Source: Symbiodinium natans
Lineage: Eukaryota; Sar; Dinophyceae; Suessiales; Symbiodiniaceae
NCBI GenBank assembly: GCA_905221605.1
Contig: CAJNDS010000429.1
Coordinates: 62,001 to 126,000 of the forward strand
Length of the DNA stretch: 64,000 nucleotides
Reading direction: 5' to 3'
This document shows positions 12,238 to 58,130 of this stretch, piece by piece; the stretch's first letter is position 1; each line of letters starts with the position of its first letter. Below the pieces are notes generated by a model that was not told where the DNA came from, made no database searches, and was given only the letters and a program-made list of their open reading frames with translations. The translations under genes were made by a program, and so were the position numbers.

Positions 12238-12791
12238 ATGGCCACGCTGCTTACCTGTCTTCGCACAGACTGCTACAGCACATTCGTTGGCAACATGCTG
12301 GAGACCGAGGACGCCCTGCCGCTGCTGCAGCTGGCCAAGTCCCCGGAGCTGAAGCAAGTCCGATGGGCACGCCGCCTGCGAGAAGCCACAGCCAGAATTC
12401 GCCGCGTCATGGACCCTCTCAAGACCACCCAGCTGCGATTCCCCGGCTTCGCGTGCGCTGGGACTATTAGCTGCAGAAAGCCGCGAAGACATCCGACGCA
12501 GCGACAAGCATCCAAAACTACCTAATCCTTATGGCTTGGATGGAAGCAAACGACTTCGCTGGCTACACGCCCAGCGAAACGGTGCTGATGCTGAACGCCT
12601 AGCCCAAAAGCACCAGAGACACAGGGGCAGGACTCAGCGACTTCCTCGAAGAAACAAACACTGCGTTCTACTACATGACCAACTTCCAGGAGCGCGGAAA
12701 GTTCAGAGCAAACATGTGCACAAAGACTTGGTGTTTTTTCAAGTACGACGGTCTTGCAGGTGTCCTGGAAACGCAGGACACAACACCTTGA
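12238..12791 (+). pseudogene. Tandem-family B1, broken by frameshift and stop
   Basis: Opens MATLLTCLRTDCYSTFVGNM, matching B2, and stays colinear to about residue 80. Small deletions at about 12476-12530 then shift the frame. From the ATG at 12531 the B-type sequence resumes in the other frame (WMEANDFAGYTPSETVLMLN), meets an in-frame TAG at 12600-12602 where B2 has Trp (NAWPKS), and continues colinear to the TGA at 12789. Two independent lesions indicate a dead copy; B2 at 13823 is intact. Confidence 0.85.
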
Positions 12792-12924
12792 CCCGTCGAG
12801 CCAGAAAAAGCCGACCAAATAAGACATGATGAACAGAAGACCGGAGACCGCGAAGACAAAGGACAGGAGGACCCAAACAGATTTCCACCGCAAGCGTCAT
12901 CCGCCAAGATCTCTCACGCAGTCT

Positions 12925-12985
12925 TCCTCTCTCTCTCTCTCTCTCTTTTTGTCTCTGTCTCTCTCTCTCTCTCTCTCTATTTCTA
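12925..12985 (+). repeat. (TC)n microsatellite
   Basis: About 60 bp of almost pure TC repeat with a short TTTTTGTC interruption, 80-140 bp upstream of gene A2; absent upstream of A1. Confidence 0.9.
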
Positions 12986-13066
12986 CCTCGCGACCAATGT
13001 ACACTAGCAGCCACGACCTATCGAGCGGAAGCAGACTTGCTCTAGCAGATTCGAGCAGCGCCCGCC

Positions 13067-13612
13067 ATGACGACATTGCTAGCTTGCCTTCGGACGGACC
13101 ACTACAGCACACTCATCCGAGAAATGCTGCAAGCAGACGAAGCACTGCTCTTGCTCCAGCTCGCAAACTTGCCGGAGCTGGTTCAGATCAAATGGGCACA
13201 CCGGCTGCAAAAGGCCACTGCGAGGATTCGCGGCGTCATGGACCCTCTCGGAGACATCCAGCTGCGATTCCCGGGCTTCTTCCGTCCAATGACCATCAGA
13301 TGCAGAAAGCGCGGACACCGATCAGACCCGATAGTGAGCCAGGACAACGCCGAAGACCTTCTGCGTTGGTTGAAGAGCAACGATCTCGCGGCCTTCACTC
13401 CCGGCGAAGCGGTCCTGGTCATGAACGCCTGGGAAAAGAGCCGAAGAAGCGCTGGAGCCAAATTGAGCGACTTCCTCCAAGAAGCAAACGCCGAGTTCTA
13501 TTACTCGTACAGATTCACCGGAAACTGCCCTTGGAAGATACGAGCAAGAGTAATTGTGTGTTTCGAGCACCAAAATCTCGTCGGCTTCATTGAACTGCAT
13601 GAAAAAGAATAA
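13067..13612 (+). CDS. Tandem-family protein A2, 181 aa
   Basis: Second A-type copy, colinear with A1 over its whole length (MTTLLACLRTDHYSTLIREM; QLRFPGFF; TPGEAVLVMNAWEKS; LSDFLQEANAEFYYS; VIVCFEHQNLVGFIEL). Differences are single substitutions without indels that disturb the frame, implying selection on the protein. Unknown function. The preceding region carries a (TC)n tract not shared with A1. Confidence 0.75.
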   Translation: MTTLLACLRTDHYSTLIREMLQADEALLLLQLANLPELVQIKWAHRLQKATARIRGVMDPLGDIQLRFPGFFRPMTIRCRKRGHRSDPIVSQDNAEDLLRWLKSNDLAAFTPGEAVLVMNAWEKSRRSAGAKLSDFLQEANAEFYYSYRFTGNCPWKIRARVIVCFEHQNLVGFIELHEKE

Positions 13613-13822
13613 GAAAAAATCAATTGTCTCTGTATGGCAGCGTCGTCTCACACCAGCCGGCCGTACGAGTAGGGCAGGGGACAGACGCAGGAAAGCAGCC
13701 CTCACGCAGTTCGAGCAACAACGAAAAGCGGTGCTGGAGGGACATCAGCAAGCTTGTCCTGTGGCCACGCAACTGTGCCGCCAGCCACGTGACATCAAGC
13801 GGGTGAAGTTTTTTGCCTCGCC

Positions 13823-14389
13823 ATGGCCACGCTGCTTACCTGCCTTCGCACAGACTGCTACAGCACAAGCATTCGCAACATGCTGGAAGCCGACGATGCC
13901 CTGCCACTGCTGCAACTGGCAAAGGCGCCAGAGCTGAAACACGTCCACTGGGCACGCCACTTGCGAGAAGCCATAACCAGAATTCGGGGCGTCATGGACC
14001 CTCTGAAGACCACCCAGCTGCGATTCCCAGGCTTTGTGCGCGCCGTGACCATCAGCTGCAGGCGCAGAAAAGGATGGAAGACATCCCGCCCAGTGATAAC
14101 CATGGAAAACGTCCAAAACCTGATGGGTTGGATGGACGACAACGACTTCGCCGGCTACACGCCCAGCGAAACAGTACTGGTGATGAACGCCTGGCCCAAA
14201 AGCACCAGAAACACGGGGGCAGAACTGAGCGATTTCCTCCAAGAAGCAAACGCTGCTTTCTACTACATGATCAATTTCGAGGAACCGCCGCCCAGCAACC
14301 GTAGAGCAGGCAGGTACATAAAGACAGTTGTGTTTTTCCAGTACAAAGGTCTTGCAGGTGTCCTGGAAATGCAGGATGCAGCGCCCTGA
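13823..14389 (+). CDS. Tandem-family protein B2, 188 aa
   Basis: Intact B-type copy (MATLLTCLRTDCYSTSIRNM). It shares with A-type proteins the blocks LLQLA, IRGVMDPL, QLRFPGF, DFAGYTPSETVLVMNAWPKS, LSDFLQEANAAFYYM, and a C-terminal strand VVFFQYKGLAGVLEM. It differs by an ISCRRRKGW loop and a longer EPPPSNRRAG segment before the last strand. The conserved core across A and B types suggests a shared fold with a variable loop at residues ~78-92. No known family recognised. Confidence 0.75.
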   Translation: MATLLTCLRTDCYSTSIRNMLEADDALPLLQLAKAPELKHVHWARHLREAITRIRGVMDPLKTTQLRFPGFVRAVTISCRRRKGWKTSRPVITMENVQNLMGWMDDNDFAGYTPSETVLVMNAWPKSTRNTGAELSDFLQEANAAFYYMINFEEPPPSNRRAGRYIKTVVFFQYKGLAGVLEMQDAAP

Positions 14390-14533
14390 CCAGTCCACCG
14401 CCGGAAAGAACATCTCTGATGACGACAACATGCACGAGCACTTCGTGCTGCTCACACACTGCATCAAATATCGCTGCAAGCGTTTCGGCTCGAAGCCAAG
14501 CAAGTTTTGCGGAAGCACGAGACACAATAAGGC

Positions 14534-15562
14534 ATGCTGCACTTCCGAAAGATCAATGGCGAGCTAGTTTGCAGCTGTGCCGCCGACGCCTGCAAACCAA
14601 CTGCCGACGACGAGGGCGTCTTGGAGGCTTTCCGCAAGTACCTGCACAAACATGAAGGCGCCCCGCGCTACAGAGCCCAGTTCATCATCGGCAACAAGAA
14701 GATCACAGACAACAAGCAACCGTGGAACAACCTGAGCACGCTGATCGCAAATGAAGGAAGTATTGACGTCCAGATGGTGGTGCCAGACTTCTTGCCCGGA
14801 GGCGAGACGAGCTTCAAGCGTGCCATAAAGCAAGGCAACTTGAAAAGAGTCGAGCGCATGCTGGAAAGCTTCGCAGACCCCAACATGCGCATAGACAAGG
14901 AGCAAGAATTCCACTCGCAGCCGCTGCAGGTGGCGGTCAGCTTGTGCGAGCACGACATCACAAAGGCACTGCTACGGGCCGAAGCGAACATAAACAACCT
15001 GACCGACGACCCGCCCCTGAACATTGCCTGCCGCAACCATGACCTCAGGACGATGCAGCTGCTGCTGCGGTCCGCAGCCGATCCCAACTGCAGAAACAAG
15101 CTGGGCGACACTCCGTTGCATGCCTGCGTCTTCCACGGCTCAGCCTCCACGACAGCCCTCCTTCTTCGGTTTCGCGCAAGCATGGCAGCGGAATGCCGTC
15201 CCAAAGGGATGACGCCTCTTGGGCTGGCCGTTCAGTGGGGTCTGGCCGAGGCCACGAAGTTGCTACTGACAGGCCAGGCCATGCTGCAGGAGAACAGAGC
15301 ATCCCACAGCGCTCTGCACGTTGCCGCCGAGCACGGAAACATTCCGTTCATGCGAATGCTGGTACATGCTAGAGCAGACCCCAACGTCACCAATCGTCAC
15401 GGCGAGATGCCTTCGGACCTCCTGCCCAAGCACACAACTTTTCGAGAACGCTTTGTCTGCAGACGAATTTTGTCTGAGAGAACAGCCGTAGTGCCTCAGT
15501 CTCACCTTCCATGCGCACACACGGCGCAGGACTTGAGACAGTTCAAGAGCTTTGCAGACTGA
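14534..15562 (+). CDS. Ubiquitin-like/ankyrin-repeat protein, copy 1 (342 aa)
   Basis: Residues 1-85 (MLHFRKINGELVCSC; VLEAFRKYLHKHEGAPRYR; then a strand QMVVPDF) have the order of the ubiquitin-like N-terminal domain common in predicted dinoflagellate ankyrin proteins. Residues ~95-305 form about six ankyrin repeats. Examples are SFKRAIKQGNLKRVERML, QPLQVAVSLCEHDITKALL, TPLHACVFHGSASTTALLL, SALHVAAEHGNIPFMRMLV with ADPN loop endings. A Cys/His-containing tail of ~25 residues follows. Ankyrin repeats mediate protein binding; the partner is unknown. No membrane segment. The tandem paralogue at 15806 is colinear. Confidence 0.9.
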   Translation: MLHFRKINGELVCSCAADACKPTADDEGVLEAFRKYLHKHEGAPRYRAQFIIGNKKITDNKQPWNNLSTLIANEGSIDVQMVVPDFLPGGETSFKRAIKQGNLKRVERMLESFADPNMRIDKEQEFHSQPLQVAVSLCEHDITKALLRAEANINNLTDDPPLNIACRNHDLRTMQLLLRSAADPNCRNKLGDTPLHACVFHGSASTTALLLRFRASMAAECRPKGMTPLGLAVQWGLAEATKLLLTGQAMLQENRASHSALHVAAEHGNIPFMRMLVHARADPNVTNRHGEMPSDLLPKHTTFRERFVCRRILSERTAVVPQSHLPCAHTAQDLRQFKSFAD

Positions 15563-15805
15563 AAAGTGCTTTGCGCAACTGAGCATGCTCATTCAGCCCG
15601 TGAACGCCTGGACCAGTCGCAGCAGGCGAGAAAAAACAGAATCAAAAGACAAGAAGCGAGCTCGCAGTTTGGCAGTCGAGCAGGAAAACCTGTCGACACA
15701 TGCAAATGATGCCTCGAACCCAATTCCATCGCACCCGGCTGTGTTTCGGATCGAAGCAAGCCTGTATTGTTCAATAACCTCAAGTCCAGCCCGCGCAAAA
15801 GAAAG

Positions 15806-16813
15806 ATGCTTCACTTCCGGAACATGAACGGCGAGGTGGTCTGCAGCTGCGCCGCAGAGGCCTGCGCGCCCGCAGCCGACGACAGGAGCATGGCCGACGC
15901 CTTCCGCAAGTACCTGCGCAAACGAATCGGCGCCCCAAGGTACAGAACTCAGTTCATCGTCGACGGCAAGATCACAGACAACAATCAACCGTGGAGAACC
16001 TTGAGCGCTTGCACAACAACCCTCGCCAACCTCGACATCCAGATGGTGGTGCCAAGCTGCGTAGCGGAAGGCCACAAGGAGCTCAAACGCGCAATCAAGC
16101 AAGGCAACATGCAAATGGTCAAAAGCGCGATGGAAAGCTTCGCAGACCCCAACATGAGCATAGACATGGTCGAAAGCATGGGTCCCGACGACATGAACAT
16201 CATGAACATTGACACCCAAGAGATTGACCTCCAACCCGTGCAGCCCCTTCAGCTCGCCGTCTGCCTGAGAGAATACTCGATCACAAAGGTGCTGCTGAAA
16301 GCTGCAGCGAACGTCAACAACACAAACAGCAGTCCGCCGGCCTTGAACATCGCCTGCTACAACCACGACGTCAGGATGATGCAACTGCTACTCAGGTGCG
16401 CAGCCGATCCCAACCACAGGAACAAGCTCGGCTACACTGCCTTGCACGCTTGCGTCTTGCGCGGCGCAGCCTCTTCAACCGCCCTCCTTCTTCGGTTTCG
16501 CGCAGACATGGCCGCCGAATGTTGCTGCGACGGACTGACCCCTCTGGGGGTGGCCATTCAATGGAACATCTCCAGCGCGGCAAGGTTGCTGCTGGCACAT
16601 CGAGCCATCGTGCACGAAGCCAGAGCATCCCACAGCGCTCTGCACGTTGCCGCCGAGCAAAGAAACACAACGTTCATACGACTGCTGGTAGAAGCTAAAG
16701 CAGACCCGAACGCCACCAATCGTCAAGGGGAGACACCGGCGGACGTCCTGCCAAAGCGCCCCTGCTTTCGTGAACGCCATGTCTGCAGGCGACTACTGAG
16801 CGAACACCTGTAG
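15806..16813 (+). CDS. Ubiquitin-like/ankyrin-repeat protein, copy 2 (335 aa)
   Basis: Start chosen at the ATG of MLHFRNMNGEVVCSC by colinearity with the preceding paralogue; the frame is open ~13 codons upstream. Same architecture: ubiquitin-like N-terminus (1-85), then ankyrin repeats to about 315. It differs by an insertion of ~15 residues rich in Met/Asp (SMGPDDMNIMNIDTQE) between the first and second repeats, and it lacks the C-terminal tail of copy 1. Both copies end the repeats with a conserved FRER.VCRR.LSE block. Confidence 0.9.
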   Translation: MLHFRNMNGEVVCSCAAEACAPAADDRSMADAFRKYLRKRIGAPRYRTQFIVDGKITDNNQPWRTLSACTTTLANLDIQMVVPSCVAEGHKELKRAIKQGNMQMVKSAMESFADPNMSIDMVESMGPDDMNIMNIDTQEIDLQPVQPLQLAVCLREYSITKVLLKAAANVNNTNSSPPALNIACYNHDVRMMQLLLRCAADPNHRNKLGYTALHACVLRGAASSTALLLRFRADMAAECCCDGLTPLGVAIQWNISSAARLLLAHRAIVHEARASHSALHVAAEQRNTTFIRLLVEAKADPNATNRQGETPADVLPKRPCFRERHVCRRLLSEHL

Positions 16814-17161
16814 TGCTCAGCGCTCAAGCAGCCGTGATAAGAACAGAAAATCATGTGAACTCCTACCACAATGAACAGAACCTTTGCGGAATGACATGCG
16901 CTTGCAAAAACATGCACCTCCTGAGCTGCCCGTGTGCATTTGTCAATATCATGTAGTCACACGCAGCAAGCCTGCCGCGGCCTTGACCCCAAACTGTTTG
17001 TCAATCACTCATGGCTGCTATCCCCCTGCTCGCATCCCTCAATGCTCGAGGAATCCTTGCAACCAGATTCACGCGCATGAATCTCACACACGTCGACTGT
17101 CAACCTGGTGCCGCAGCCAATACTCCAGACAGTAAATCCTTCATCAGTTTCCAGCAAGTAG
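16814..17161 (+). other. Spacer before the Helitron gene
   Basis: No convincing gene. A + frame from 17011 passes an ATG in GCC-ATG-G context at 17182 that encodes MAPCCSRCGSIRVGRGRG; this might be the true N-terminus of the Helitron protein if a short intron or frameshift joins it to the frame open from 17162 onward. Confidence 0.4.
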
Positions 17162-19324
17162 CTCGCGCCGCCATCCACGCCATGGCGCCCTGCTGCAGTC
17201 GATGTGGCAGCATACGCGTCGGCCGCGGCAGAGGCGAGCAATCTCTGTCACTATACCATTTTTGCACGATTCTTCTGTCGCCCAGGCTTCTGCACCAGCA
17301 TAGAGTGCCGACAAGAAGAGCAACAAGAAAAAGAGAGGGAGAAGCAAGCTGCTACAGCCAGAAGAGCAGCAGCAAAAGTCGGCGCCCGCGGACCCTTGCC
17401 AGCCAACTATAGTCGGAACGTGCAGAAACAGGAGCTTCAAGCAGCAAGGAAGAAAGAAGGCGGCGGCACCCGCGGGCCCATGCCAGGCGCAGGAGGTCGC
17501 CCAGAGGATGAGGACAGCCGCAGACTGCAGCGAAAGGAGCTGCAAGAAGCGAGGAAGGAAGAAGGCGGCGGCGCCCGCGGGCCCATGCCAGGCGCAGGAG
17601 GTCGCCCAGAGGATGAGGACAGCCGCAGACTGCAGCGAAAGGAGCTGCAAGAAGCGAGGAAGGAAGAAGGCGGCGGCGCCCGCGGGCCCATGCCAGGCGC
17701 AGGAGGTCGCCCAGAGGATGAGGACAGCCGCAGACTGCAACGAAAGGAGCTGCAAGAAGCGAGGAAGGAAGAAGGCGGCGGCGCCCGCGGGCCCATGCCA
17801 GGCGCAGGAGGTCGCCCAGAGGATGAGGACAACCGCAGACTGCAGCGAAAGGAGCTTCAAGAAGCGAGGAAGGAAGAAGGCGGCGGCACCCGCGGGCCCA
17901 TGCCAGGCACAGGAGGTCGCCCAGAGGATGAGGACAGCCGCAGACTGCAGCGAATGGAGCTGCAAGAAGCGAGGAAAGAAGCAGGCGGTGGCACCCGCGG
18001 GCCCATGCCAGGCGAAGGCGCAGGCGGTCGGCCATACATTCCAGAAGATCACAAGCATGGCCCACCATACCGCGACGAAGAACTACTCAGCGATGAAGAA
18101 ACGCAACGAAAATACAAAGACTTCGTGCGAAGCTGGACCCGGTTCGGTCTCTCTAGAATTTGCAAAACCTGCGGATCCCTGACTCCGTCAAGACACTGCC
18201 GACCGACTGGTCCGGCGCAGACCCCGAGTTGTCGAAACTGCCGAGAGAACAAGACAAGGTTCAGACTGCCAGCCTTGCTGCCTGTGCCACCGCCGCTGCA
18301 GCAGCTAAAGCCCATCGAGCAGCACCTTCTGGCCATGGCTCGCATATCACAAGTGGTGCTGGACAAGTTGCCTTCAGGAGGACCAAGCGCCCAGTGGGGC
18401 AGAATGTACGCCGTACTCATGGAGGATCCGTGCATTTGCGACGTCCTGACTGGCGCAGTCCTGCAAGAAGACGGCACGGTTCAGGTACAAGGCGTTGATG
18501 GCCTGACAGAATCTCCTGCCAGGCTAGAGAACCTGCACAGTGCTCTCAACGAACTCCGGACGCTGCACAAGCTGTACACAAACAGTCCCGCCGTGCACGA
18601 GGCCATCGAAAAGATGAGCCACATCATGAAGCACAAAAAGACACCCTCCACGACAACCGAAGCCAACCAAGACAGGAAGGAAACCAAGCAGGCAGAAGCA
18701 GACGAGGAGGAGGACCAGCAGTTCACCTACCTGGTTCCGAAAGATTTGAAGGTCCCCAGAGCAGACACGACCGAACTGCGTCAAACCAGAAGCAGCGCGG
18801 CCTTGATAGACGACATCGACGTGAAGTTCTTCCCGCACCTATTTCCCGAAGGAACTGACGGTTGGAAGCAAGAGTACCAAAGCTTTTCCCAATATGCCAG
18901 GAAACGCCTGCTGTCGCAGGACCAACGCTTCGAGACTTCTGCCTCCTACATCATGTGGCTCCTCGAGACACAAATGAAGAAGCGACTTTCCGGCAACGTG
19001 AACGTGCGGGTCGGCACGCAGCAAAAGCCAAGAGGATGTCACGGCTATCAAGATGGAAGCCGACGCGTCTACACTGCACTGCGGGACATTCCCGGCACAC
19101 AGCCATACCTATACGCAAAGAAGGGCATCGCGCTGAACATGTATGAGCAGCTCGGGCAGCCACAGTTCTTTCTGACACTGACCTGCCACGCCCAGCAACC
19201 GAGCATCCTGCTAGCAGCCATTTCGGCGCGCTTGTTGCGCCTGAATCCAAACCTGACACCTGCAGAGCTGCTTGGAAAAATTTGCATACAAGATGTTATA
19301 TGGTTGGTTCACAGTGCAACTTAA
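17162..19324 (+). CDS. Helitron Rep/helicase gene, N-terminal part
   Basis: Open frame from 17162, no ATG near its start, so the true start is unresolved. Residues ~75-285 are six 35-aa repeats (feature below). Next is a Cys-rich segment (ICKTCG ... CRNCRENKTRF) followed by LLPVPPPLQQLKPIEQHLLA, matching the DUF6570-type region found in Helitron proteins. Near the end, KFFPHLFPEGTDGW, YARKRLLSQDQRFETSASYI and LGQPQFFLTLTCHAQQP match the Helitron_like_N domain (P-x-LFP-x-G; lG.PtfF.TlTc). The frame ends at TAA 19322, with TAG at 19337 in the same phase, and the domain resumes in that phase from 19349. Confidence 0.85.
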   Translation, partial: LAPPSTPWRPAAVDVAAYASAAAEASNLCHYTIFARFFCRPGFCTSIECRQEEQQEKEREKQAATARRAAAKVGARGPLPANYSRNVQKQELQAARKKEGGGTRGPMPGAGGRPEDEDSRRLQRKELQEARKEEGGGARGPMPGAGGRPEDEDSRRLQRKELQEARKEEGGGARGPMPGAGGRPEDEDSRRLQRKELQEARKEEGGGARGPMPGAGGRPEDEDNRRLQRKELQEARKEEGGGTRGPMPGTGGRPEDEDSRRLQRMELQEARKEAGGGTRGPMPGEGAGGRPYIPEDHKHGPPYRDEELLSDEETQRKYKDFVRSWTRFGLSRICKTCGSLTPSRHCRPTGPAQTPSCRNCRENKTRFRLPALLPVPPPLQQLKPIEQHLLAMARISQVVLDKLPSGGPSAQWGRMYAVLMEDPCICDVLTGAVLQEDGTVQVQGVDGLTESPARLENLHSALNELRTLHKLYTNSPAVHEAIEKMSHIMKHKKTPSTTTEANQDRKETKQAEADEEEDQQFTYLVPKDLKVPRADTTELRQTRSSAALIDDIDVKFFPHLFPEGTDGWKQEYQSFSQYARKRLLSQDQRFETSASYIMWLLETQMKKRLSGNVNVRVGTQQKPRGCHGYQDGSRRVYTALRDIPGTQPYLYAKKGIALNMYEQLGQPQFFLTLTCHAQQPSILLAAISARLLRLNPNLTPAELLGKICIQDVIWLVHSAT
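17427..18020 (+). repeat. 105-bp in-frame tandem repeat, six copies
   Basis: Six head-to-tail copies of a 105-bp unit encoding 35 residues of the form KELQEARKEEGGGARGPMPG followed by AGGRPEDEDSRRLQR. Copies 2-4 are nearly identical; the first and last are diverged (ARKKEGGGT; ARKEAGGGT, MPGEGAGGRPYI). The length multiple of three and conserved frame show expansion under coding constraint. The product is a charged, Gly/Pro-containing linker. Confidence 0.95.
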
Positions 19325-19348
19325 AGAAACGTAGCGAAATAGCAACAC

Positions 19349-22300
19349 TTGCTACCCAATCCTTCGCACAACAACGTGAGGCTCGAACATGAGGCAGCTC
19401 AACTTCTTCGCAGCTATCAAAAGCCCGACTTCAGATGGGACGGCTTGTCTGCCAATCAGCTATGCAACCAACAACCAGCCGTCGTGGCTCGACAATTCAT
19501 GCATCAGCTACGGCAATTCCTGCGGTGGATGGCTCCACACATCAACGTGGACAAGAAGATCGATGCCAATGCCGACCCGGAAGACCAACACCACCAAGAA
19601 GACGAGGAAGACACGATCAGCGTAGCAGCACCAGCACCAGACACGTCAGGCCAACACCACACCATGCGCAAAGAAACACCACCGTTCCACGTTACCGAGT
19701 ACATCGTGCGCATAGAATGGCAGAAGCGAGGCTATCCACACGCCCACATCCTGCTGTGGATGAATCCAGCGCCGCCCACGGAGACACCAAACCCCCTACA
19801 AGCCGAGGACGTGGACTGGTCAGACGAGGAAGACTGCCGTCGATTCGTGCCAAAGACCGCTGAAGAGATCAGCGACAAATTCATATGCACGAAGTCGCCG
19901 GCAAGCTGGCGAGAATCCACCAAAACAGATGCAACAATCAGAGAGGTGAACGCCAAGCTAGCAGAGATGATGATACATCACTGCAGCGCCTACTGCGGCA
20001 AATTCGCGCTGGGGGCCTGTCGCTTCGGATTTCCTCGCGGCGAAGCCGACCGTTCACGCAGAAGAGATGCCCAGGAGATGTTCTTCAGTCGGTGGAAAAG
20101 CAGTTTAACAGCAAGGAGACAAAAGCGAGACTGCATGATGGGACAGTACAACGCCGCCATGCTACGAATGTGGAGAGCAAGCATGGACTTGCAGGTCATA
20201 TGTGAGCTCACGAGCGCCAGCCGCTACATACTGGGCTACACGTTCAAGTCCGAGGAAGACTTCATCGCAGCCCGTCGCATGCAAGCAGTCATAGAAAAGC
20301 TGGCCACGGAAAACAGCAACCAAGCTCTCAACGCGCAAGAGGTGTACCGAGCCGCACATGCAGCGCTGCAAGGCAGGACAACCTCCACCTTCGAAGCATG
20401 CCACTTGCTGCTGGGATTTCCGGTGGTCGAATTCTCCAGAGACAACACGTGGATCCAAGCAGGCCCGCCAGAAACCTGGACACTGTGGGTACCGCAACGA
20501 GAAGAAGCCCAAGCGATAAAGCAGCCGGACGCGTACTTCGCAAGCAAGCAAGGACAAGAATGCAGCATGCCCGTCGCCCAACGATGCTACCAGCACTTAC
20601 AAAAGGCCTTTGCAGAGCAAGAGACCGACGTACCGGTCGAAGGGTCCTCGCCAGTGAAGCGACGATGGAAAGACATCACTTTCTTCGACTTCTGCGCAGG
20701 CTTCAGGTTCATCGGCAAAGAATTCCCAGTTCCTCGAAAACGCCCAGCCATCGTGGGATATCGAAACTTCAGTCCGGACCTGGAGCCAGAAGCCTTCTAC
20801 TACTCCAAGCTGCTGCTGCACTTGACCTGGACGACGCCCGGAGAATGGTTGCGACCAGAAGACAAAAACAGCCACGCCGCAGCCTTCCAGCGAATCGCCC
20901 GCGACGACAAGCAGCATCCCACCTTCTTGGAATCCATCTGCTTACCTGCTCTGGATGGCACGGTCGAGGCAGCCCGCAAACTACAAGCAGTTCAAGCCGT
21001 CATGTACATGAAAGCCAAAATGGCACCCGCGGACCTCCGAGACGGTTGGTCGCACAGCCGCGCTGACGAGCAAAACTATCAAGATGCCCTCAAGATCATG
21101 GAGGCTCTGAGAGAGAGGCACGGAGGGACCATCGACTTTACGGCTCCAGACTTCGTGCCAACCGGCCCCGCAAGCAGCGCTTTCACACCAGTGGAAGGCG
21201 GAGAAGAAGCTTTCGGTCTGCTCACGACCAAGAACCCGGACCCAGAAACAGAACGACAACGACAGGCCATGGAGTACATCATTCGCACCGTCACGGACAA
21301 CCCGAACACCAAAGCCGGCCCCAGCACTCGACGCCTACGTCTCCTTCTGCACGGACCTGGAGGTTGCGGCAAATCAGTAGTGGTGCGCGCTGCTGCCCAC
21401 ATGCTTCGCCAAAGCGGCAAGGGCATAATCATAGCGGCGCCCACTGGCGTAGCAGCCTGCAATGTCAATGGCGTGACCCTACACCAATGCCTCTTCCTTC
21501 CGGTCGTGAACCGTAGCCACGGGAAAGCCTGCGACGCTCCGTTGCCGAGGGGCTCGCACCTCGCAGCCCTGCATGAACTCTGGGCACAAGTATCCGTGCT
21601 CATCGTGGACGAGATCAGCTTCATCTCCGCCTTCATGTTCGACCGCATAGACCAGCACCTGCGCATGGCCCGCAACATTCCCGACATCCCCTTCGGGGGG
21701 CTGCACGTGATCTTCTCGGGCGACCTCTACCAGCTGCCACCTCCAGGAGGCCACCCTTGCTTCTGCAGTTCCCTATGGTGCTTCTTCGAGCTATGCGAAC
21801 TGCAGGGCAATCAGCGTGCAGCGCAGGATCCAGAATGGGCCGCGCTACTAGCGCGAGTGCGCATCGGCACTTGGACAGAGGGGGACATTCGCATGCTGAG
21901 AAGCCTCGTCATCAAGAAGAACGGCAAGCAGCAGCCTGCAACAGAAGCCGTGCACCTCTACGCCACCCGCAAGGCCGTCGCAGAAGACAACCAGCAATAC
22001 CTAGACAAACACCTAGCCAGCACAGGCAGCCAACTCTACGAGTGCCCAGCCGTGGACATCAGCGTGAGAACGGGCGCGCCATTGCCGCCGGAACTCGCCT
22101 GGGCCGAACCAGAGAACACAGGAGGGCTCGAAGCCTTGCTGCGAATAGCAGTAGGAGTCCGAGTCATGCTCCGATTCAACATAGACGTTCGCGACAAGCT
22201 CGTCAACGGCGCGTGCGGAACAGTCACCCACATCGACGCCGAGGACACTGGAGAAGTGACAAAGATCTGGGTCAACTTCGAAGGACAAGCAGGAGCTCTC

Positions 22301-23596
22301 TGGTGCGAAGCAAAAGAAATGCAATCGGTGGCAATAACAAGACGAACAGCCACATTCCAGGACCAAACCGACAGCCGAGCGGAGCGCAAGCAGTTTCCAC
22401 TCGTGCTTGCCAAAGCCACCACCATACACAAAAGTCAGGCAGCCACATGCCATCAAGGAGCGCACTCTGCACTGGACAGCACAGTCACCCAAGAAGGACA
22501 GGCGTACGTCGCGCTTTCCCGCTGTCCCACCCGACAACATTGCACACTCAGGAATTTCAACCCTGCGTGCCTACGATTCAACTCGCATGCAGAATGGGCA
22601 CTCACGAAACTCAGAGAACAGCAAGCAGAGAAGTCAGGCAGCGAGCTCTGGTGCAAGCTCATGAAACCTCCGCACAACAAAGAATTCTACACCCAACGGC
22701 TGGCCAAGCTGCCCCACCCAGACCTCCACAACAACAACAGCCCAGACGACGAACGACCATGGCACTGCCCACGATGCGGCGAAGCCACAGCCCACACCAA
22801 ACCAGCGATGAATGCACACAAGCGCATCTGCCCGGCAGCGCCACCCAAAGCCAAAGCCAAAGCCAAAGCCAAAGCCAAAGCCAAAGCCAAAGGCAAAGGC
22901 AAAGGCAAAGGCAAAGGCAAACCGAAACAAAAAGCCACGAGCAACAAAAGAACCAGAAGCACAACTACGCCACCCGAAAGAACATCCTGCAAACACAACG
23001 CGGTGCATTGGCAAACCAGCACGTTACAGGACAAGAAGCGCAAACGAGGCACACCAGACAGCCCAACAAATAGCCCTCCCAGCAAGAAGACGTCAAGCAA
23101 CCAGACAGACGGCAGGCCATCAGAACAAAGCAACATCTTCTTCGAAGAACAAGAAGGAGCCCGATGCGGCAAGCATGCGCTCAACAATGCACTCGGACAC
23201 CATTTCTTCGACACCGCAGACATGCAGGACGCGGCCGAAACATTCATATGGGAGAACCCCGAACTCGGTGACGATATCGAAAGACACATCTCACCTGACG
23301 GAGACTATTCCATCGAAACCATGATGATGGCATTGCGAACCACGGCAATGAAGAAGTTCGGGCGCCTTTGCTGGCAAATGAGAGACACGCGTGCCACCAG
23401 CATCAGAGACCTGGACGATTGCGTCGGAGCAGTGCAGAACCACTACAACCAGCACTGGGTCGCCTTGAGGCGCACCGGCGAAAACTTCCTGTACGTGGAC
23501 TCTTTGAACCGAGCAAAGCAGGCAACCATCCTCACAACGGAAGAACTAGAAGCCAGACTGCGCGCCCATCCAACATATGCGATTCGCGAGATTTGA
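19349..23596 (+). CDS. Helitron HUH-Y2 Rep + PIF1 helicase + Josephin domain
   Basis: Residues are numbered from 19349, a continuation of the preceding frame. Rep: EWQKRGYPHAHILLW gives the HUH-type His-x-His (H131, H133), and RYILGY supplies two tyrosines four apart (Y293, Y297) as in Helitron Y2 nucleases. PIF1-type SF1B helicase: Walker A GPGGCGKS (669-676), Walker B IVDEIS (D754, E755), FSGDLYQLPPPGG, GVRVMLRFNID, TTIHKSQ, YVALSRC. C2HC finger: WHCPRCG to HKRIC, ~1138-1160. A Lys-Ala/Lys-Gly linker follows. The C-terminal ~155 residues resemble a Josephin deubiquitinase: EQEGARCGKHALNNALG (C1273), YSIETMMMALR, HWVAL (H1369), YVDSL (D1384). The Rep initiates rolling-circle transposition and the helicase unwinds DNA. 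Confidence 0.92.
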   Translation: MLPNPSHNNVRLEHEAAQLLRSYQKPDFRWDGLSANQLCNQQPAVVARQFMHQLRQFLRWMAPHINVDKKIDANADPEDQHHQEDEEDTISVAAPAPDTSGQHHTMRKETPPFHVTEYIVRIEWQKRGYPHAHILLWMNPAPPTETPNPLQAEDVDWSDEEDCRRFVPKTAEEISDKFICTKSPASWRESTKTDATIREVNAKLAEMMIHHCSAYCGKFALGACRFGFPRGEADRSRRRDAQEMFFSRWKSSLTARRQKRDCMMGQYNAAMLRMWRASMDLQVICELTSASRYILGYTFKSEEDFIAARRMQAVIEKLATENSNQALNAQEVYRAAHAALQGRTTSTFEACHLLLGFPVVEFSRDNTWIQAGPPETWTLWVPQREEAQAIKQPDAYFASKQGQECSMPVAQRCYQHLQKAFAEQETDVPVEGSSPVKRRWKDITFFDFCAGFRFIGKEFPVPRKRPAIVGYRNFSPDLEPEAFYYSKLLLHLTWTTPGEWLRPEDKNSHAAAFQRIARDDKQHPTFLESICLPALDGTVEAARKLQAVQAVMYMKAKMAPADLRDGWSHSRADEQNYQDALKIMEALRERHGGTIDFTAPDFVPTGPASSAFTPVEGGEEAFGLLTTKNPDPETERQRQAMEYIIRTVTDNPNTKAGPSTRRLRLLLHGPGGCGKSVVVRAAAHMLRQSGKGIIIAAPTGVAACNVNGVTLHQCLFLPVVNRSHGKACDAPLPRGSHLAALHELWAQVSVLIVDEISFISAFMFDRIDQHLRMARNIPDIPFGGLHVIFSGDLYQLPPPGGHPCFCSSLWCFFELCELQGNQRAAQDPEWAALLARVRIGTWTEGDIRMLRSLVIKKNGKQQPATEAVHLYATRKAVAEDNQQYLDKHLASTGSQLYECPAVDISVRTGAPLPPELAWAEPENTGGLEALLRIAVGVRVMLRFNIDVRDKLVNGACGTVTHIDAEDTGEVTKIWVNFEGQAGALWCEAKEMQSVAITRRTATFQDQTDSRAERKQFPLVLAKATTIHKSQAATCHQGAHSALDSTVTQEGQAYVALSRCPTRQHCTLRNFNPACLRFNSHAEWALTKLREQQAEKSGSELWCKLMKPPHNKEFYTQRLAKLPHPDLHNNNSPDDERPWHCPRCGEATAHTKPAMNAHKRICPAAPPKAKAKAKAKAKAKAKGKGKGKGKGKPKQKATSNKRTRSTTTPPERTSCKHNAVHWQTSTLQDKKRKRGTPDSPTNSPPSKKTSSNQTDGRPSEQSNIFFEEQEGARCGKHALNNALGHHFFDTADMQDAAETFIWENPELGDDIERHISPDGDYSIETMMMALRTTAMKKFGRLCWQMRDTRATSIRDLDDCVGAVQNHYNQHWVALRRTGENFLYVDSLNRAKQATILTTEELEARLRAHPTYAIREI
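22849..22922 (+). repeat. Hexanucleotide repeat encoding Lys-Ala/Lys-Gly
   Basis: About nine copies of GCCAAA followed by about five of GGCAAA, translated as alternating Lys-Ala then Lys-Gly. It forms a positively charged linker between the zinc finger and the Josephin-like domain, likely for non-specific DNA contact. Confidence 0.95.
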
Positions 23597-23931
23597 CAAT
23601 CTGCTCATCAACCACCTCTATGCAGCTCGGCCTGAGAGAATCAAGCAGCCTTTCAATTTCTTAAACTTTCGAAGAGTGTGATTTGCCGAGGCCTTCGGAA
23701 ACGTCACGACGGCCCAGAACTGAGCGTTCAGGTGCCAGTTTCACCTTGCACAACGACAAAGACTCCAAAAGCACGGTCCAAAACAAGCTCGTGCCGTAGT
23801 TTCTCAAAGCCATAAAACAGAATGTCAGAAGGGAATCTGCACAGGCTTATGTCTGCGTCACTTCATGCTGAGAGCATTCCTGGATCAAGACAAGTTTGAA
23901 ACCCATTGCATTGTCGTCGAGAAGAACAGCC
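23597..23931 (+). other. Spacer between helicase and nuclease genes
   Basis: No gene or repeat recognised. The nuclease frame is open ~12 codons upstream of its ATG, but no other start or splice signal is convincing. Confidence 0.5.
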
Positions 23932-25068
23932 ATGCCTCTCATCGAAGATTGCGCGCCATCCCCAGCAAGAAAGGTACGGAAACTGGACACCCAGCAGCAA
24001 AATCTCGTAAATCTGAAGATGCTGGGAGTGGACTTCGTGCTGCCCAAGCAAATTGCATACCAGGAACACTTATCCTCCTTTCCAGAACGTCCTCTCGAAC
24101 TACCAGCCACAATTCCTGACGACTTCGTGAAGGACACCCTGGCAGAATTGAACGCGCACCCGCGAGACAGAAATATCAGCTTCCAAGCAGACGACCACAT
24201 CTACTTTTGGAAAGGACAGCGTGTGTCCAAATCAGTCACCCAATTTATTCACAAATTCGCCGCACCGTTCTGCGAAGAGCAGGTCATCAGTTCAATGCGA
24301 GAAAGCTGCAACTGGCCTCGTCCCGGATACCTGAAGACCACGCTTTCAGAAAGCCAGAAGAATAAGCTGCGGAAGATCCCCGGCAGCGAAGAACTTCTCG
24401 CAGAGCTCCAACGACTAGAACGAGACGAACTCAAAGTATGCCGTCTGGCCTTCAAGCTGCGTGCAAACCATGCGAACAATCCAGAAAAGGATATAGATAT
24501 AGCAAATGCTCTGACAGAACTCGGTCTTTCCCAGGAAGAAATCATGCGCAAGTGGGAGAAAGCACGACAGGATGGAGCAAAAGAAGGCACGTGGATGCAC
24601 GCACAATTCCAGTGCCTGCTCAATGGTGGCACCGTTCCCGCAAAAACCACCGAAGTGTTTCTCCTGTCGCAATTTCTACGGTCACAAGCCAACACGAAGG
24701 CGTTCCGAACAGAGTGGCAAGTCTACGCAGACAGTGAAGACCTGGCGGGCAGCATCGACTATGTGGCGAAGCGGCCAGACAACAGCGTAGCCATCGTGGA
24801 TTGGAAACGCACAAGTCCATATCGGCTCCAACGCCAGACGTCCAACAAGTTCATGCGAACGCCACTGAGCCATGTCCCCGACTGCACTCTGTGGCACTAC
24901 CGCCTCCAGCTCAACGTTTACAAGTTCATTTTAGAAAAGTACTACGGAGAAACCGTTTCTGCCATGTACATAGTGGGAACCAATCCCGAATACGGAGATC
25001 AACCGTTCATAGACAACGTTCCCTTAATGGACCTTGAGACAAAGACTCTCCTAACGAACACGCAGTGA
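23932..25068 (+). CDS. PD-(D/E)XK superfamily nuclease, 378 aa
   Basis: Start at the first ATG (AGCC-ATG-C) of the open frame. Residues ~80-110 (HIYFWKGQRVSKSVTQFIH) resemble the lead-in of RecB/Cas4-like nucleases. A helix with GAKEGTWMHAQFQ (~220) fits the family's G-x-x-x-H helix (motif I). The core is seen as TEWQVY, LAGSIDYVAK (D276), VAIVDWKR (D290-x-K292, the catalytic D-x-K), then WHYRLQLNVYKFILEKYYG giving the Q-x-x-x-Y helix. These residues coordinate Mg2+ for DNA cleavage. The position right behind the HUH-Y2 helicase gene suggests an accessory role in transposition. A truncated copy of its 3' end is at 30668. Confidence 0.85.
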   Translation: MPLIEDCAPSPARKVRKLDTQQQNLVNLKMLGVDFVLPKQIAYQEHLSSFPERPLELPATIPDDFVKDTLAELNAHPRDRNISFQADDHIYFWKGQRVSKSVTQFIHKFAAPFCEEQVISSMRESCNWPRPGYLKTTLSESQKNKLRKIPGSEELLAELQRLERDELKVCRLAFKLRANHANNPEKDIDIANALTELGLSQEEIMRKWEKARQDGAKEGTWMHAQFQCLLNGGTVPAKTTEVFLLSQFLRSQANTKAFRTEWQVYADSEDLAGSIDYVAKRPDNSVAIVDWKRTSPYRLQRQTSNKFMRTPLSHVPDCTLWHYRLQLNVYKFILEKYYGETVSAMYIVGTNPEYGDQPFIDNVPLMDLETKTLLTNTQ

Positions 25069-26500
25069 GGAACAGCAAAAAATGAAGACCAGCGTGTGCT
25101 CTGCTTAAATCAGATGGTAACGACGGGCCTTGAGAACCCCCCCACCCTATCAGTTCCTTATGATATGATACTGATCCAACACCCGAAGGGGAATATCAGA
25201 GAATCATCCATGCAATAAATACAACGCGCTGGAAGACCCCTCGAAAGCCATCCCCCCCCCCCCACCAAAAAAAAGAGCCGCCCCAGGAAGCTCCCGAAAA
25301 GCATCAGGCGACTCCCCAAAAGACCATGGAACACAGAAACAACAAAAAGAACAAGAGCCCAGATTCCGATGCCCTGCCAGATAAACGGGCAACATTTTCC
25401 TCTTAGATAAGAAACTCGAAATAGCAAAAAAGAGAGGGACAAGCCCGGATGCCGGCGCCCTGCCAGAAAAACAGGTAGCATTGAGGGGCAGGCGCTCAGA
25501 AATAGCTAAAAAGAGGCAAAGGCCGCCCTAAAAAAGCCAAAATAGCAAAAACATAGGCAAAGGCCCGGGTTCCAGCGCCCTGCTGGAAAAAAGGCAACCT
25601 TTCCCCCTTAGACAGGCGCCCAGAAATAGCCAAAAAAGCAAAGACCCGGGTTCTAGCGCCTTGCCCAAAAACGGGCAGCATTTCAGCAAAAAAGAGGGGG
25701 GGAGAAGGAGCAAGATGAGCATCACCCTGAGCCAAAGGAGCAAAAGAAGAGGGGGACGGTTTGTCCCATGGTGAGCATCATAAAAACAAAAAGCAGAAGG
25801 GGCATCGGGCACTTGCAGGCAAAGCCGCTTCTCCTAGCCCCTTGAGCAAAAAGTCTGCTTCTTCTTCTTCTTCTGTCTTCTTCTGGCGCCTCCACTCCCA
25901 CCCCCTTCCCAGCAGGGCAGTGAAAGGCAGCCTAGGGAAACCGCAAGGGGTTGGAGCTTAGGGGCCTAAACCACGCAGGGTTTAGCGAAGGGCAGCCTAG
26001 GGTAACCGATTGGGGTTCGGGACTTCGGGGCCTACCCTAGAACCCTACCTAAACCGGGGGGAGGCTCCCGGCAGGGAACCCGCCCTCCACGTCGTCGTCG
26101 ATGTAGCCAATGCCTGCAGCAGGGCGGGGTTTTCAGGAGGAGGAAGAGAGGGGTTCAAAGCTTCTCTCTCTCACTCTCTCTCACCAGCCGGGCCTTGTCA
26201 CACGCAGGGCCGCAGCCCTCCCCACACCCCGCCCGGGCCCCCACCCACCCCTATTGGCTTGTGGAGCGGTTCAAGACATGTTGACAAGCAAGTTCAAGAT
26301 TCAAGACAACATGCCAAAAATCATGCAACTCCAAAACTCGCGAAAAAAAAACAAGAAAGAGCTGCAACTTTTGGTATATTAAACTCTAGATAGTTTGACA
26401 CGCCTTCAGAACAACGAAAACACTTAAAAACTCTTCCATCCTGAAAAATGATGAGTTCTGCTTCGCTTGCCGTGGGCTGGTCTGTCTGCGGGTCTCCCGC
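24822..26500 (+). repeat. Segmental duplication, copy 1 (without insert)
   Basis: From TCGGCTCCAACGCC inside the nuclease gene to GGGTCTCCCGC, this 1.68-kb segment is nearly identical to 30668-33856 after removing a 1,532-bp insert from the latter. Differences are scattered substitutions and 1-12 bp indels, so the duplication is recent relative to the surrounding repeats. Confidence 0.92.
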
Positions 26501-26853: not shown

Positions 26854-27022
26854 TAAACCCTAAACCCTAAACCCTAAACCCTAAACCCTAAACCCTAAAC
26901 CCTAAACCCTAAACCCTAAACCCTAAACCCTAAACCCTAAACCCTAAACCCTAAACCCTAAACCCTAAACCCTAAACCCTAAACCCTAAACCCTAAACCC
27001 TAAACCCTAAACCCTAAACCCT
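26854..27022 (+). repeat. Interstitial telomeric array 1, (CCCTAAA)n
   Basis: About 24 uninterrupted heptamers of the plant/dinoflagellate-type telomere repeat. Flanks form an imperfect inverted repeat: CTACACAATTT on the left, ATAGAAATTGTATAG on the right (27036-27050). It lies inside the window and so does not mark a chromosome end. Confidence 0.97.
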
Positions 27023-29975: not shown

Positions 29976-30224
29976 GTGACCGTTTTGGGCACTCTGGGCA
30001 AAAAAAACAGCTGAAAAAGCCTGCTTTTCAGACGAAAAAAATACTAAAATGGGCCATCTGAAGAGTCTCCCAAAAGGACCCCAAAAGCCGCTGCCTTTTT
30101 TTCGATGGCTTGAAAAAAGGCTGAAAAAGCCGGCTTTTTCAAGAAAAAGCAAAACGAAAAACTCGCTCAAAACCCGCCCAAAACCCGCACAATACTCGGG
30201 ACCCAAACCCTATACAATTTCTAT
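29976..30224 (+). other. Junction before telomeric array 2
   Basis: Contains AAAAAGCC-type inverted motifs (AAAAAGCCTGCTTTT; AAAAAGCCGGCTTTTTC), then ACTCGGGACCCAAACCCTATACAATTTCTAT, equivalent to the left junction of array 1 though lacking the 13-bp repeats. No gene. Confidence 0.6.
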
Positions 30225-30468
30225 AAACCCTAAACCCTAAACCCTAAACCCTAAACCCTAAACCCTAAACCCTAAACCCTAAACCCTAAACCCTAAACCC
30301 TAAACCCTAAACCCTAAACCCTAAACCCTAAACCCTAAACCCTAAACCCTAAACCCTAAACCCTAACCATAAACCCTAAACCCTAAACCCTAAACCCTAA
30401 ACCCTAAACCCTAAACCCTAAACCCTAAACCCTAAACCCTAAACCCTAAACCCTAAACCCTAAACCCT
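30225..30468 (+). repeat. Interstitial telomeric array 2, (CCCTAAA)n
   Basis: About 35 heptamers with one variant (CCCTAACCATAAACCC near 30361). It is bracketed by a 13-bp inverted repeat: left ATACAATTTCTAT (30212-30224), right ATAGAAATTGTAT (30482-30494). Same orientation as array 1, 3.2 kb apart. Confidence 0.97.
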
Positions 30469-30667: not shown

Positions 30668-30914
30668 TCGGCTCCAACGCCAGACGTCCAACAAGTTCAT
30701 GCGAACGCCACTGAGCCATGTCCCCGACTGCACTCTGTGGCACTACCGCCTCCAGCTCAACGTTTACAAGTTCATTTTAGAAAAGTACTACGGAGAAACC
30801 GTTCTGCCATGTACATAGTGGGAACCAATCCCGAATACGGAGATCAACCGTTCATAGACAACGTTCCCTTAATGGACCTTGAGACGAAGACTCTCCTAAC
30901 GAACACGCAGTGAG
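30668..30914 (+). pseudogene. 3' fragment of the PD-(D/E)XK nuclease gene
   Basis: Matches 24822-25068 almost base for base but lacks the 5' two thirds, including the catalytic D-x-K. It has a 1-bp deletion in the T run of ACCGTTTCTGCC (here ACCGTTCTGCC), which shifts the frame. It is therefore a non-functional remnant carried by the segmental duplication. Confidence 0.93.
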
Positions 30915-31626
30915 GAGCAAAAAATGAAGACCAGCGTGTGCTCTGCTTAAATCAGATGGTAACGACGGGCCTTGAGAACCCCCCCACCCTATCAGTTCCT
31001 TATGATATGATACTGATCCAACACCCGAAGGGGAATATCAGAGAATCATCCATGCAATAAATACAACGCGCTGGAAGACCCCTCGAAAGCCATCCCCCCC
31101 CCCCCACCAAAAAAAAGAGCCGCCCCAGGAAGCTCCCGAAAAGCATCAGGCGACTCCCCAAAAGACCATGGAACACAGAAACAACAAAAAGAACAAGAGC
31201 CCAGATTCCGATGCCCTGCCAGATAAACGGGCAACATTTTCCTCTTAGATAAGAAACTCGAAATAGCAAAAAAGAGAGGGACAAGCCCGGATGCCGGCGC
31301 CCTGCCAGAAAAACAGGCAGCATTGAGGGGCAGGCGCTCAGAAATAGCTAAACAGAGGCAAAGGCCGTCCTAAAAAAGCCAAAATAGCAAAAACATAGGC
31401 AAAGGCCCGGGTTCCAGCGCCCTGCTGGAAAAAAGGCAACCTTTCCCCCTTAGACAGGCGCCCAGAAATAGCCAAAAAAGCAAAGACCCGGGTTCTAGCG
31501 CCTTGCCCAAAAACGGGCAGCATTTCAGCAAAAAAGAGGGGGGGAGAAGGAGCAAGATGAGCATCACCCTGAGCCAAAGGAGCAAAAGAAGAGGGGGACG
31601 GTTTGTCCCATGGTGAGCATCATAAA

Positions 31627-54836: not shown

Positions 54837-54861
54837 CCTGTTGTTTTGCTTCTGAAAACAC

Positions 54862-57800: not shown

Positions 57801-58130
57801 CAGCCCAAAACCCCGAGAAGCGGACGAGACCGTGACAGCCCAAAACCCCGAGAAGCGGACGAGACCGTGACAGCCCAAAACCCCGAGAAGCGGACGAGAC
57901 CGTGACAGCCCAAAACCCCGAGAAGCGGACGAGACCGTGACAGCCCAAAACCCCGAGAAGCGGACGAGACCGTGACAGCCCAAAACCCCGAGAAGCGGAC
58001 GAGACCGTGACAGCCCAAAACCCCGAGAAGCGGACGAGACCGTGACAGCCCAAAACCCCAAGAAGCGGACGAGACCGTGACAGCCCAAAACCCCGAGAAG
58101 CAGACGAGACTGTGACGGCCAAAACCCCTA
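54862..58130 (+). repeat. 35-bp satellite array (satellite B), ~93 copies
   Basis: Unit GACCGTGACAGCCCAAAACC followed by CCGAGAAGCGGACGA. About 57284-58050 consists of ~22 identical copies, while the left part and the last units carry the CCTAGAAG variant. Landmark variants recur at a spacing of about 1.23-1.27 kb (55661 and 56895; 55771 and 57005), showing an internal higher-order duplication. Confidence 0.97.

Follow-up and report, generated by a model that had tools for sequence, protein, structure and literature searches.

The association of deubiquitinase (DUB) domains with rolling-circle transposons is known from the Helentrons, for which excerpts of the literature describe OTU (PMC4067079, PMC6431247, PMC9741609) and/or VTD domains (PMC9741609), together with an AP-type endonuclease, in animals and certain fungi. 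VTD domains have been shown to cleave ubiquitin chains and were proposed to prevent proteasomal loss of the transposition proteins, and both VTD domains of one zebrafish Helitron cleave NEDD8 as well (PMC9741609). Here, we analyse a 64,000-base stretch of the dinoflagellate Symbiodinium natans (C429:62001-126000, hereafter the window) within its own assembly, which comprises 759,417,921 bases in 2543 contigs. An intron-bearing copy of a probably autonomous dinoflagellate Helitron lies in the window, and its Rep/helicase protein (RepHel) ends in a predicted Josephin-type cysteine protease. The element has in common with the Helentrons the Rep/Pif1 rolling-circle equipment, a papain-like DUB domain, here a predicted one, and the same proposed need for it. 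It differs from them in its dinoflagellate host and in that the DUB is a Josephin domain located at the C-terminus. No OTU match is listed by Pfam in the window protein, nor is there an AP-type endonuclease match at E up to 10 in its 1415-residue frame, a search in which the HMMER filters remove the majority of matches weaker than 0.1. An earlier note on this DNA, made from the sequence alone, regarded the Josephin domain as a second DUB fold recruited to the same place in these transposons. Recurrent recruitment is supported, but because Helentrons already carry OTU and/or VTD (PMC9741609) Josephin is the third class on Rep/helicase proteins and not the second, and the carriage of a DUB is in itself not new. 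In the reading that we favour, with a probability of roughly 0.6, the predicted DUB acts in cis and protects the protein that carries out transposition, or the intermediate that this protein forms on DNA.

The open reading frame (ORF) at 19349-23596 of the forward strand encodes 1415 amino acids without internal stops. It matches the Pfam profiles Helitron_like_N (PF14214; residues 35-136, E 1.1e-7), PIF1 (PF05970; residues 664-823, E 1.6e-23) and Josephin (PF02099; residues 1268-1405, E 1.1e-11, 45.2 bits versus a curated cut-off of 26), and the fusion of a Helitron Rep/helicase to a Josephin domain put forward in the earlier note is thereby borne out in a single frame. The window protein shares with canonical Helitron RepHel proteins the Rep motif I (FFLTLTC), the HUH motif (GYPHAHIL), the two tyrosines (YILGYTFK) and, placed after the Rep domain, a Pif1-type helicase with its Walker A, QLPP, IHKSQ and YVALSR motifs. 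Beyond the canonical protein, it has an N-terminal Cys motif, charged repeats, a C-terminal finger, a basic linker and the Josephin domain. The residues that had been named for the Rep and Josephin domains (H131/H133, Y293/Y297, C1273, H1369 and D1384) are all found where they had been placed, and the C2HC pattern of the finger is at residues 1140-1161.

Assignment of the tail to the Josephin class is based on several sequence comparisons. The tail alone matches the Pfam Josephin profile with E 1.9e-13, its leading matches by sequence in the PDB are ataxin-3 (1.8e-5) and Josephin-2 (0.0025), and profile matches of the domain include Josephin-2 (3.6e-9) and ataxin-3 (2.7e-7). Pfam Josephin is likewise matched by all nine aligned family members. 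With these two cellular proteins the domain shares the profile, the Gln, Cys, His and Asp/Asn residues and their order, the catalytic and oxyanion roles of these residues being presumably those of their counterparts in ataxin-3. The third residue of the triad had been contrasted with the Asn of ataxin-3; this difference stands, but Asp is not unusual, since the corresponding residue of Josephin-2 is also Asp, which makes Asp1384 ordinary for the class. A ubiquitin-removing enzyme of the ataxin-3/Josephin type is what would be expected of such a tail. Cellular Josephins stand alone or beside ubiquitin-binding motifs, whereas the window domain forms part of a transposon Rep/helicase protein. Substrate choice is not fixed by sequence, and faint matches to Ulp1 in two of the nine members (best E 0.21) and to UCH in one (E 0.0041) would fit a tail that processes the fusion protein itself or that cleaves SUMO or NEDD8 instead of ubiquitin, as would the NEDD8 cleavage by the two VTD domains of one zebrafish Helitron (PMC9741609). 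The Josephin matches are, however, far stronger, and we regard such an activity as quite unlikely.

The fusion is not confined to this locus. Comparison of the window frame with its own genome scored 33 RepHel places, the best 33 of 1833 first-look candidates (61 rows), so that lower-ranking kin may differ; the Josephin region is present in all 33, one of which (on C1477) bears a stop within it. Twenty of these places were fetched for comparison. Family A comprises the window, L010-L012, L014, L015 and, as a more distant member, L013; family B comprises L016-L022, near-identical among themselves, and L025; family C comprises L023, L024 and L026-L029; families D and E are L032 and L035, respectively. 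In every family read, the Josephin domain is fused to RepHel as its C-terminus behind a variable basic linker. Identity between families is 53-82% in the helicase and 31-68% in the Josephin domain, and L013 is 88-89% and 53-57% identical, respectively, to the other family-A members compared. L034, one of the half-domain places described below, is a family-C-like piece that misses the catalytic Cys.

A PF02099 profile survey of the genome found at least 97 Josephin places, all above the cut-off (100 candidates scored), and a PF14214 survey at least 100 Rep places, 99 of them over the cut-off (129 scored). Among the matches listed, 68 Josephin places contain all or almost all of the domain (the match starting at profile position 1 or 5), and 29 hold its second half only, mostly in 143-residue frames that are perhaps a multi-copy truncated derivative. 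Again among the matches listed, 64 of the 100 Rep places are followed on the same strand, after 3.3-4.8 kb, by one of these 68 Josephin domains; the pairs are no count of independent insertions, and 42 of the 64 share one open frame (equal frame length). Of the 68 complete or almost complete domains listed, 64 are thus behind a Rep place, and therefore nearly all such domains found are Helitron-borne, in a survey that may miss host genes interrupted by introns or of lower rank. The four listed domains that have no Rep match upstream are on C978, C934, C1939 and C1634; that on C934 is L014, whose frame does carry the Y2 and helicase motifs. These four places, the long open frames and the low substitution ratios given below are what one would see if the RepHel-Josephin proteins had become host genes conserved for a need of the host. 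Yet many near-identical copies on separate contigs, truncated and stop-bearing copies and the presence of several families have the look of a proliferating element, and domestication appears highly improbable.

An OTU profile survey found 49 places, none of which, when the tables were compared by eye, neighbours a listed Rep place; many of these are in frames of 1,000-2,300 residues, possibly another multi-copy family. In the public collections no relative of the Josephin domain or RepHel was found in viral_contigs, searched with the single domain, the whole frame and the alignment, or in genome_contigs, and a Rep-motif pattern search of the collections returned one contig (L001). The 21-mer of the dinoflagellate spliced leader occurs 104 and 101 times in the genome and is absent from the control, which marks the host as a dinoflagellate. 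Searches of the open-licence PMC literature found no description of a Helitron with a Josephin domain, subscription papers, preprints and repeat libraries being outside their range; in the excerpted text of PMC9741609 'josephin' names a DUB class, and in PMC7643365 it is the first name of an author.

The Gln, Cys, His and Asp residues are invariant across 12 distinct Josephin sequences, a separate alignment of nine also lists invariant columns, and L032, L033 and L035 likewise retain all four. Ratios of non-synonymous to synonymous substitution (dN/dS, Nei-Gojobori), for pairs drawn from families A, B and C, are 0.06-0.29 for the Josephin domain in 10 of 12 pairs, two pairs giving no ratio and that of L013-L014 depending on a saturated dS of 3.2. 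In RepHel they are 0.07-0.24 in all 12 pairs, and in the linker 0.05-0.58. The Josephin domain is under purifying selection in these three families. In family A its ratio is above that of RepHel in all seven pairs with a ratio, and it is constrained there, though less than RepHel. The suspicion that the fusion might be a chance read-through at one locus can be dismissed: the fusion is found again in five families within this one genome, the catalytic residues are preserved in them, and A, B and C show purifying selection. Helitrons are known for gene capture, and the 29 half-domain places might suggest that the tail is a captured gene fragment devoid of function. This is very hard to reconcile with catalytic residues that do not vary between families despite a Josephin identity of only about 37-57%, with dN/dS well under 1 and with a frame that is open through linker and domain, and we give it very little credence.

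The Josephin domain and the helicase give conflicting trees. In the helicase tree, family B joins D, and the approximately unbiased (AU) test rejects both AB|CD (p 0.016) and AD|BC (p 0.032); the Rep-to-helicase stretch also favours B with D, but there AB|CD is not rejected (p 0.095). The Josephin tree, in contrast, groups A with B and C with D, both alternative arrangements being rejected (p below 1e-8). B and D are 82% identical in the helicase and only 35-38% in the Josephin domain, and L013 and the window are 88% and 56% identical, respectively. The simplest reading of the two trees is that recombination at the linker or close to it has replaced the Josephin end, which would thus have been exchanged as a module between families, with the qualification that family D is one sequence in the trees and that hidden old duplicates might also account for the conflict.

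Several observations weigh against the interpretation of the window as an autonomous Helitron with an active Josephin protease. The AlphaFold single-sequence model of the domain has a mean pLDDT of 49.7, and a Foldseek search with it gave 808 matches with E<=10 and none with E<=0.001, the best 50 rows containing ribosomal proteins as leaders and no Josephin. With this low-confidence model and uninformative fold search, the Josephin fold of the tail is inferred from sequence homology. Flank alignments within families revealed no canonical Helitron ends (5'-TC, a 3' hairpin plus CTRR, insertion between A and T), and no TC or CTRR was noticed at the block edges. As flank comparisons gave neither element ends nor fresh insertions, the copies are only putatively mobile today. 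The contigs may be partly redundant, in which case copies are not independent insertions. Moreover, 36 of the 100 listed Rep places have no Josephin domain downstream, many of these being short frames or near contig ends, and L036 (on C2281), read from Rep to stop, has a helicase followed by repeated zinc-ribbon-like modules (by eye) and no Josephin domain. The genome thus holds Helitrons both with and without Josephin. Long Helitron frames (2,100-3,853 residues) with no Josephin match are seen at C657, C2315, C2540 and C1880 and at L036.

In the mechanism that we favour, the Josephin tail would be an active DUB working in cis that removes ubiquitin from RepHel or from other proteins where excision and replication take place. 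The element protein, including the covalent Rep-DNA intermediate, would in this manner escape degradation by the ubiquitin-proteasome system until transposition is complete. Alternatively, the tail could act in trans and deubiquitinate host chromatin or replication-fork proteins, leaving the locus open or the fork usable; cellular Josephins are generally known to have several substrates, and the basic linker and finger ahead of the domain could bring it to DNA. Covalent attachment of the Josephin domain to RepHel in each of the families read speaks for action in cis or within a strictly local range, and action in trans seems rather unlikely. HUH enzymes, Helitron Reps included, form covalent Rep-DNA adducts. 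Crosslinks between DNA and protein are described as being tagged with polyubiquitin, which delivers them to SPRTN and the proteasome, and their ubiquitylation as activating SPRTN (PMC12277127, PMC12279946). From this treatment of crosslinks comes a narrower and rather unlikely version of the cis mechanism, in which the Josephin domain would shield the covalent Rep-tyrosine-DNA intermediate from crosslink repair by SPRTN-type proteases and the proteasome. If true, it would explain why three DUB classes (OTU, VTD and Josephin) are found on different rolling-circle lineages and why modules pass from one family to another, as would happen in an arms race against the ubiquitin ligases of the host. 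It would also offer an assayable idea of how a HUH transposon survives the repair of DNA-protein crosslinks by its host. In a broader sense, the Josephin domain of these Helitrons suggests that host ubiquitin marking has to be undone for movement, and a third DUB class turns the OTU/VTD curiosity into a pattern in which rolling-circle transposons seem to need deubiquitination at their own protein.

The frame described in the earlier note is open as reported, but the gene extends further upstream. The start at 19349 falls within the Rep domain, and motif I is found in the preceding ORF (17204-19321), which is in the same frame and also matches the Helitron_like_N profile under the cut-off (residues 76-131, E 7.7e-5). 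A GC-poor stretch (0.30-0.46 in 50-base windows) with stops at 19322 and 19340 separates the two ORFs, whereas the proteins of L028 (2073 residues) and L025 (1972 residues) are uninterrupted across this site. Alignment to these relatives predicts, within the Rep domain, a probable intron some 111 bases long, its GC-AG boundaries set by eye, and a probable second short intron near 17236-17285, after the MAPCCSRCG start. Summed from the predicted exon boundaries, the complete RepHel protein would have about 2,080 residues (Table 1). Family A seems to bear introns that are absent in L025 and L028, which would mean intron gain or loss within a transposon gene.

Table 1. Features of the RepHel-Josephin locus, in window coordinates.
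Feature	Position	Strand	Basis and remarks
Probable exon 1: MAPCCSRCG..., N-terminal Cys motif	17182..17235	+	3' boundary approximate; aligned with MAPCxRCG starts of L025/L028, also L011-L013
Probable exon 2: N-terminal region, Rep motif I	17286..19269	+	5' boundary approximate; tblastn with the L028 2073-aa protein, 49% identity here and over the start of exon 3
105-bp tandem repeats in probable exon 2	17430-18018	+	Repeat listing
Rep motif I FFLTLTC	19166..19186	+	Sequence, alignment
Probable intron, GC-AG by eye, stops 19322 and 19340	19270..19380	+	Low GC; missing from L025 and L028
Exon 3: Rep (HUH, Y2), Pif1 helicase, finger, linker, Josephin	19381..23596	+	ORF, Pfam, motifs
HUH motif HAH (H131/H133)	19739..19747	+	Motif reading
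Y2 tyrosine pair YILGY (Y293/Y297)	20225..20239	+	Motif reading
Pif1-family helicase core, Walker A to motif VI	21338..22522	+	PF05970 1.6e-23, motifs
C2HC finger CPRC...H...C	22766..22831	+	Loose C2HC pattern present in 17/17 frames compared
CCAAAG hexamer array encoding (KA)n(KG)n linker	22845..22921	+	Repeat listing
Predicted Josephin domain; Gln1268 (23150), Cys1273 (23165), His1369 (23453), Asp1384 (23498)	23150..23563	+	PF02099 1.1e-11, profile matches, invariant columns
Companion ORF, ~378 aa, GSID...IVDWK...QLNVYKF	23932..25068	+	Kept in 5/5 aligned family-A sequences

In family A, RepHel is followed by the companion ORF, within a block of family-A homology that spans approximately 17040 to 25112 with gaps. 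Its GSID...IVDWK...QLNVYKF pattern is one that we take, by eye, to be PD-(D/E)XK-like; the only Pfam hint is DUF3799 (E 0.096). Among five family-A sequences its dN/dS is 0.21-0.29 in nine of ten pairs and 0.73 in the closest pair, and no tblastn match at 1e-5 was found in L013, eight B loci and six C loci. In L010, which is otherwise near-identical to the window, the ORF matches in two frames, and this split indicates a frame break. A second fragment of the 3' part of the element, comprising the end of this putative nuclease ORF and its flank, is present in the window at 30668-31626; it is 99% identical to L010:5813-6774 and begins about 200 bp past a telomere-type array.

Helitron-like Pif1 proteins near telomere-type repeats are also described for telomere-associated elements of Oscheius tipulae (PMC8022731). 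In 17 of the 20 fetched loci, arrays of (TAAACCC)n follow the Josephin stop at a distance of 1-3.3 kb, the nearest one in the same orientation in all 17; the sequences retrieved around L014, L017 and L018 contain none, and L019 and L025 have an additional reversed array further on. Unlike in O. tipulae, such arrays are genome-wide here: the four-unit telomere repeat has 836,584 and 837,979 overlapping matches (about 1.67 million) versus 10 and 22 in the control, and in the listed part of C1 (235-340 kb) arrays recur every few kb in a single orientation. As the arrays are spread through the genome, the nearness of the element to them means little, and telomere targeting is ruled out by their abundance. 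Those of the window are at 26854-27021 and 30224-30467. Beside family-B copies the array begins at a point which in L016 and L017 forms the loop between the arms of a short inverted repeat, TACAATTTCTAT...ATAGAAATTGTA.

Upstream of the element, window positions 12300-16813 contain tandem related ORFs, three short ones and two with ankyrin repeats (14534-15562 and 15767-16813). Part of the second ankyrin gene is also upstream of L012, with 96% DNA identity, and this gene may move together with the element or with the surrounding region. Large satellite blocks with units of 31 bp and 34/35 bp occupy positions 52444-60300 of the window.

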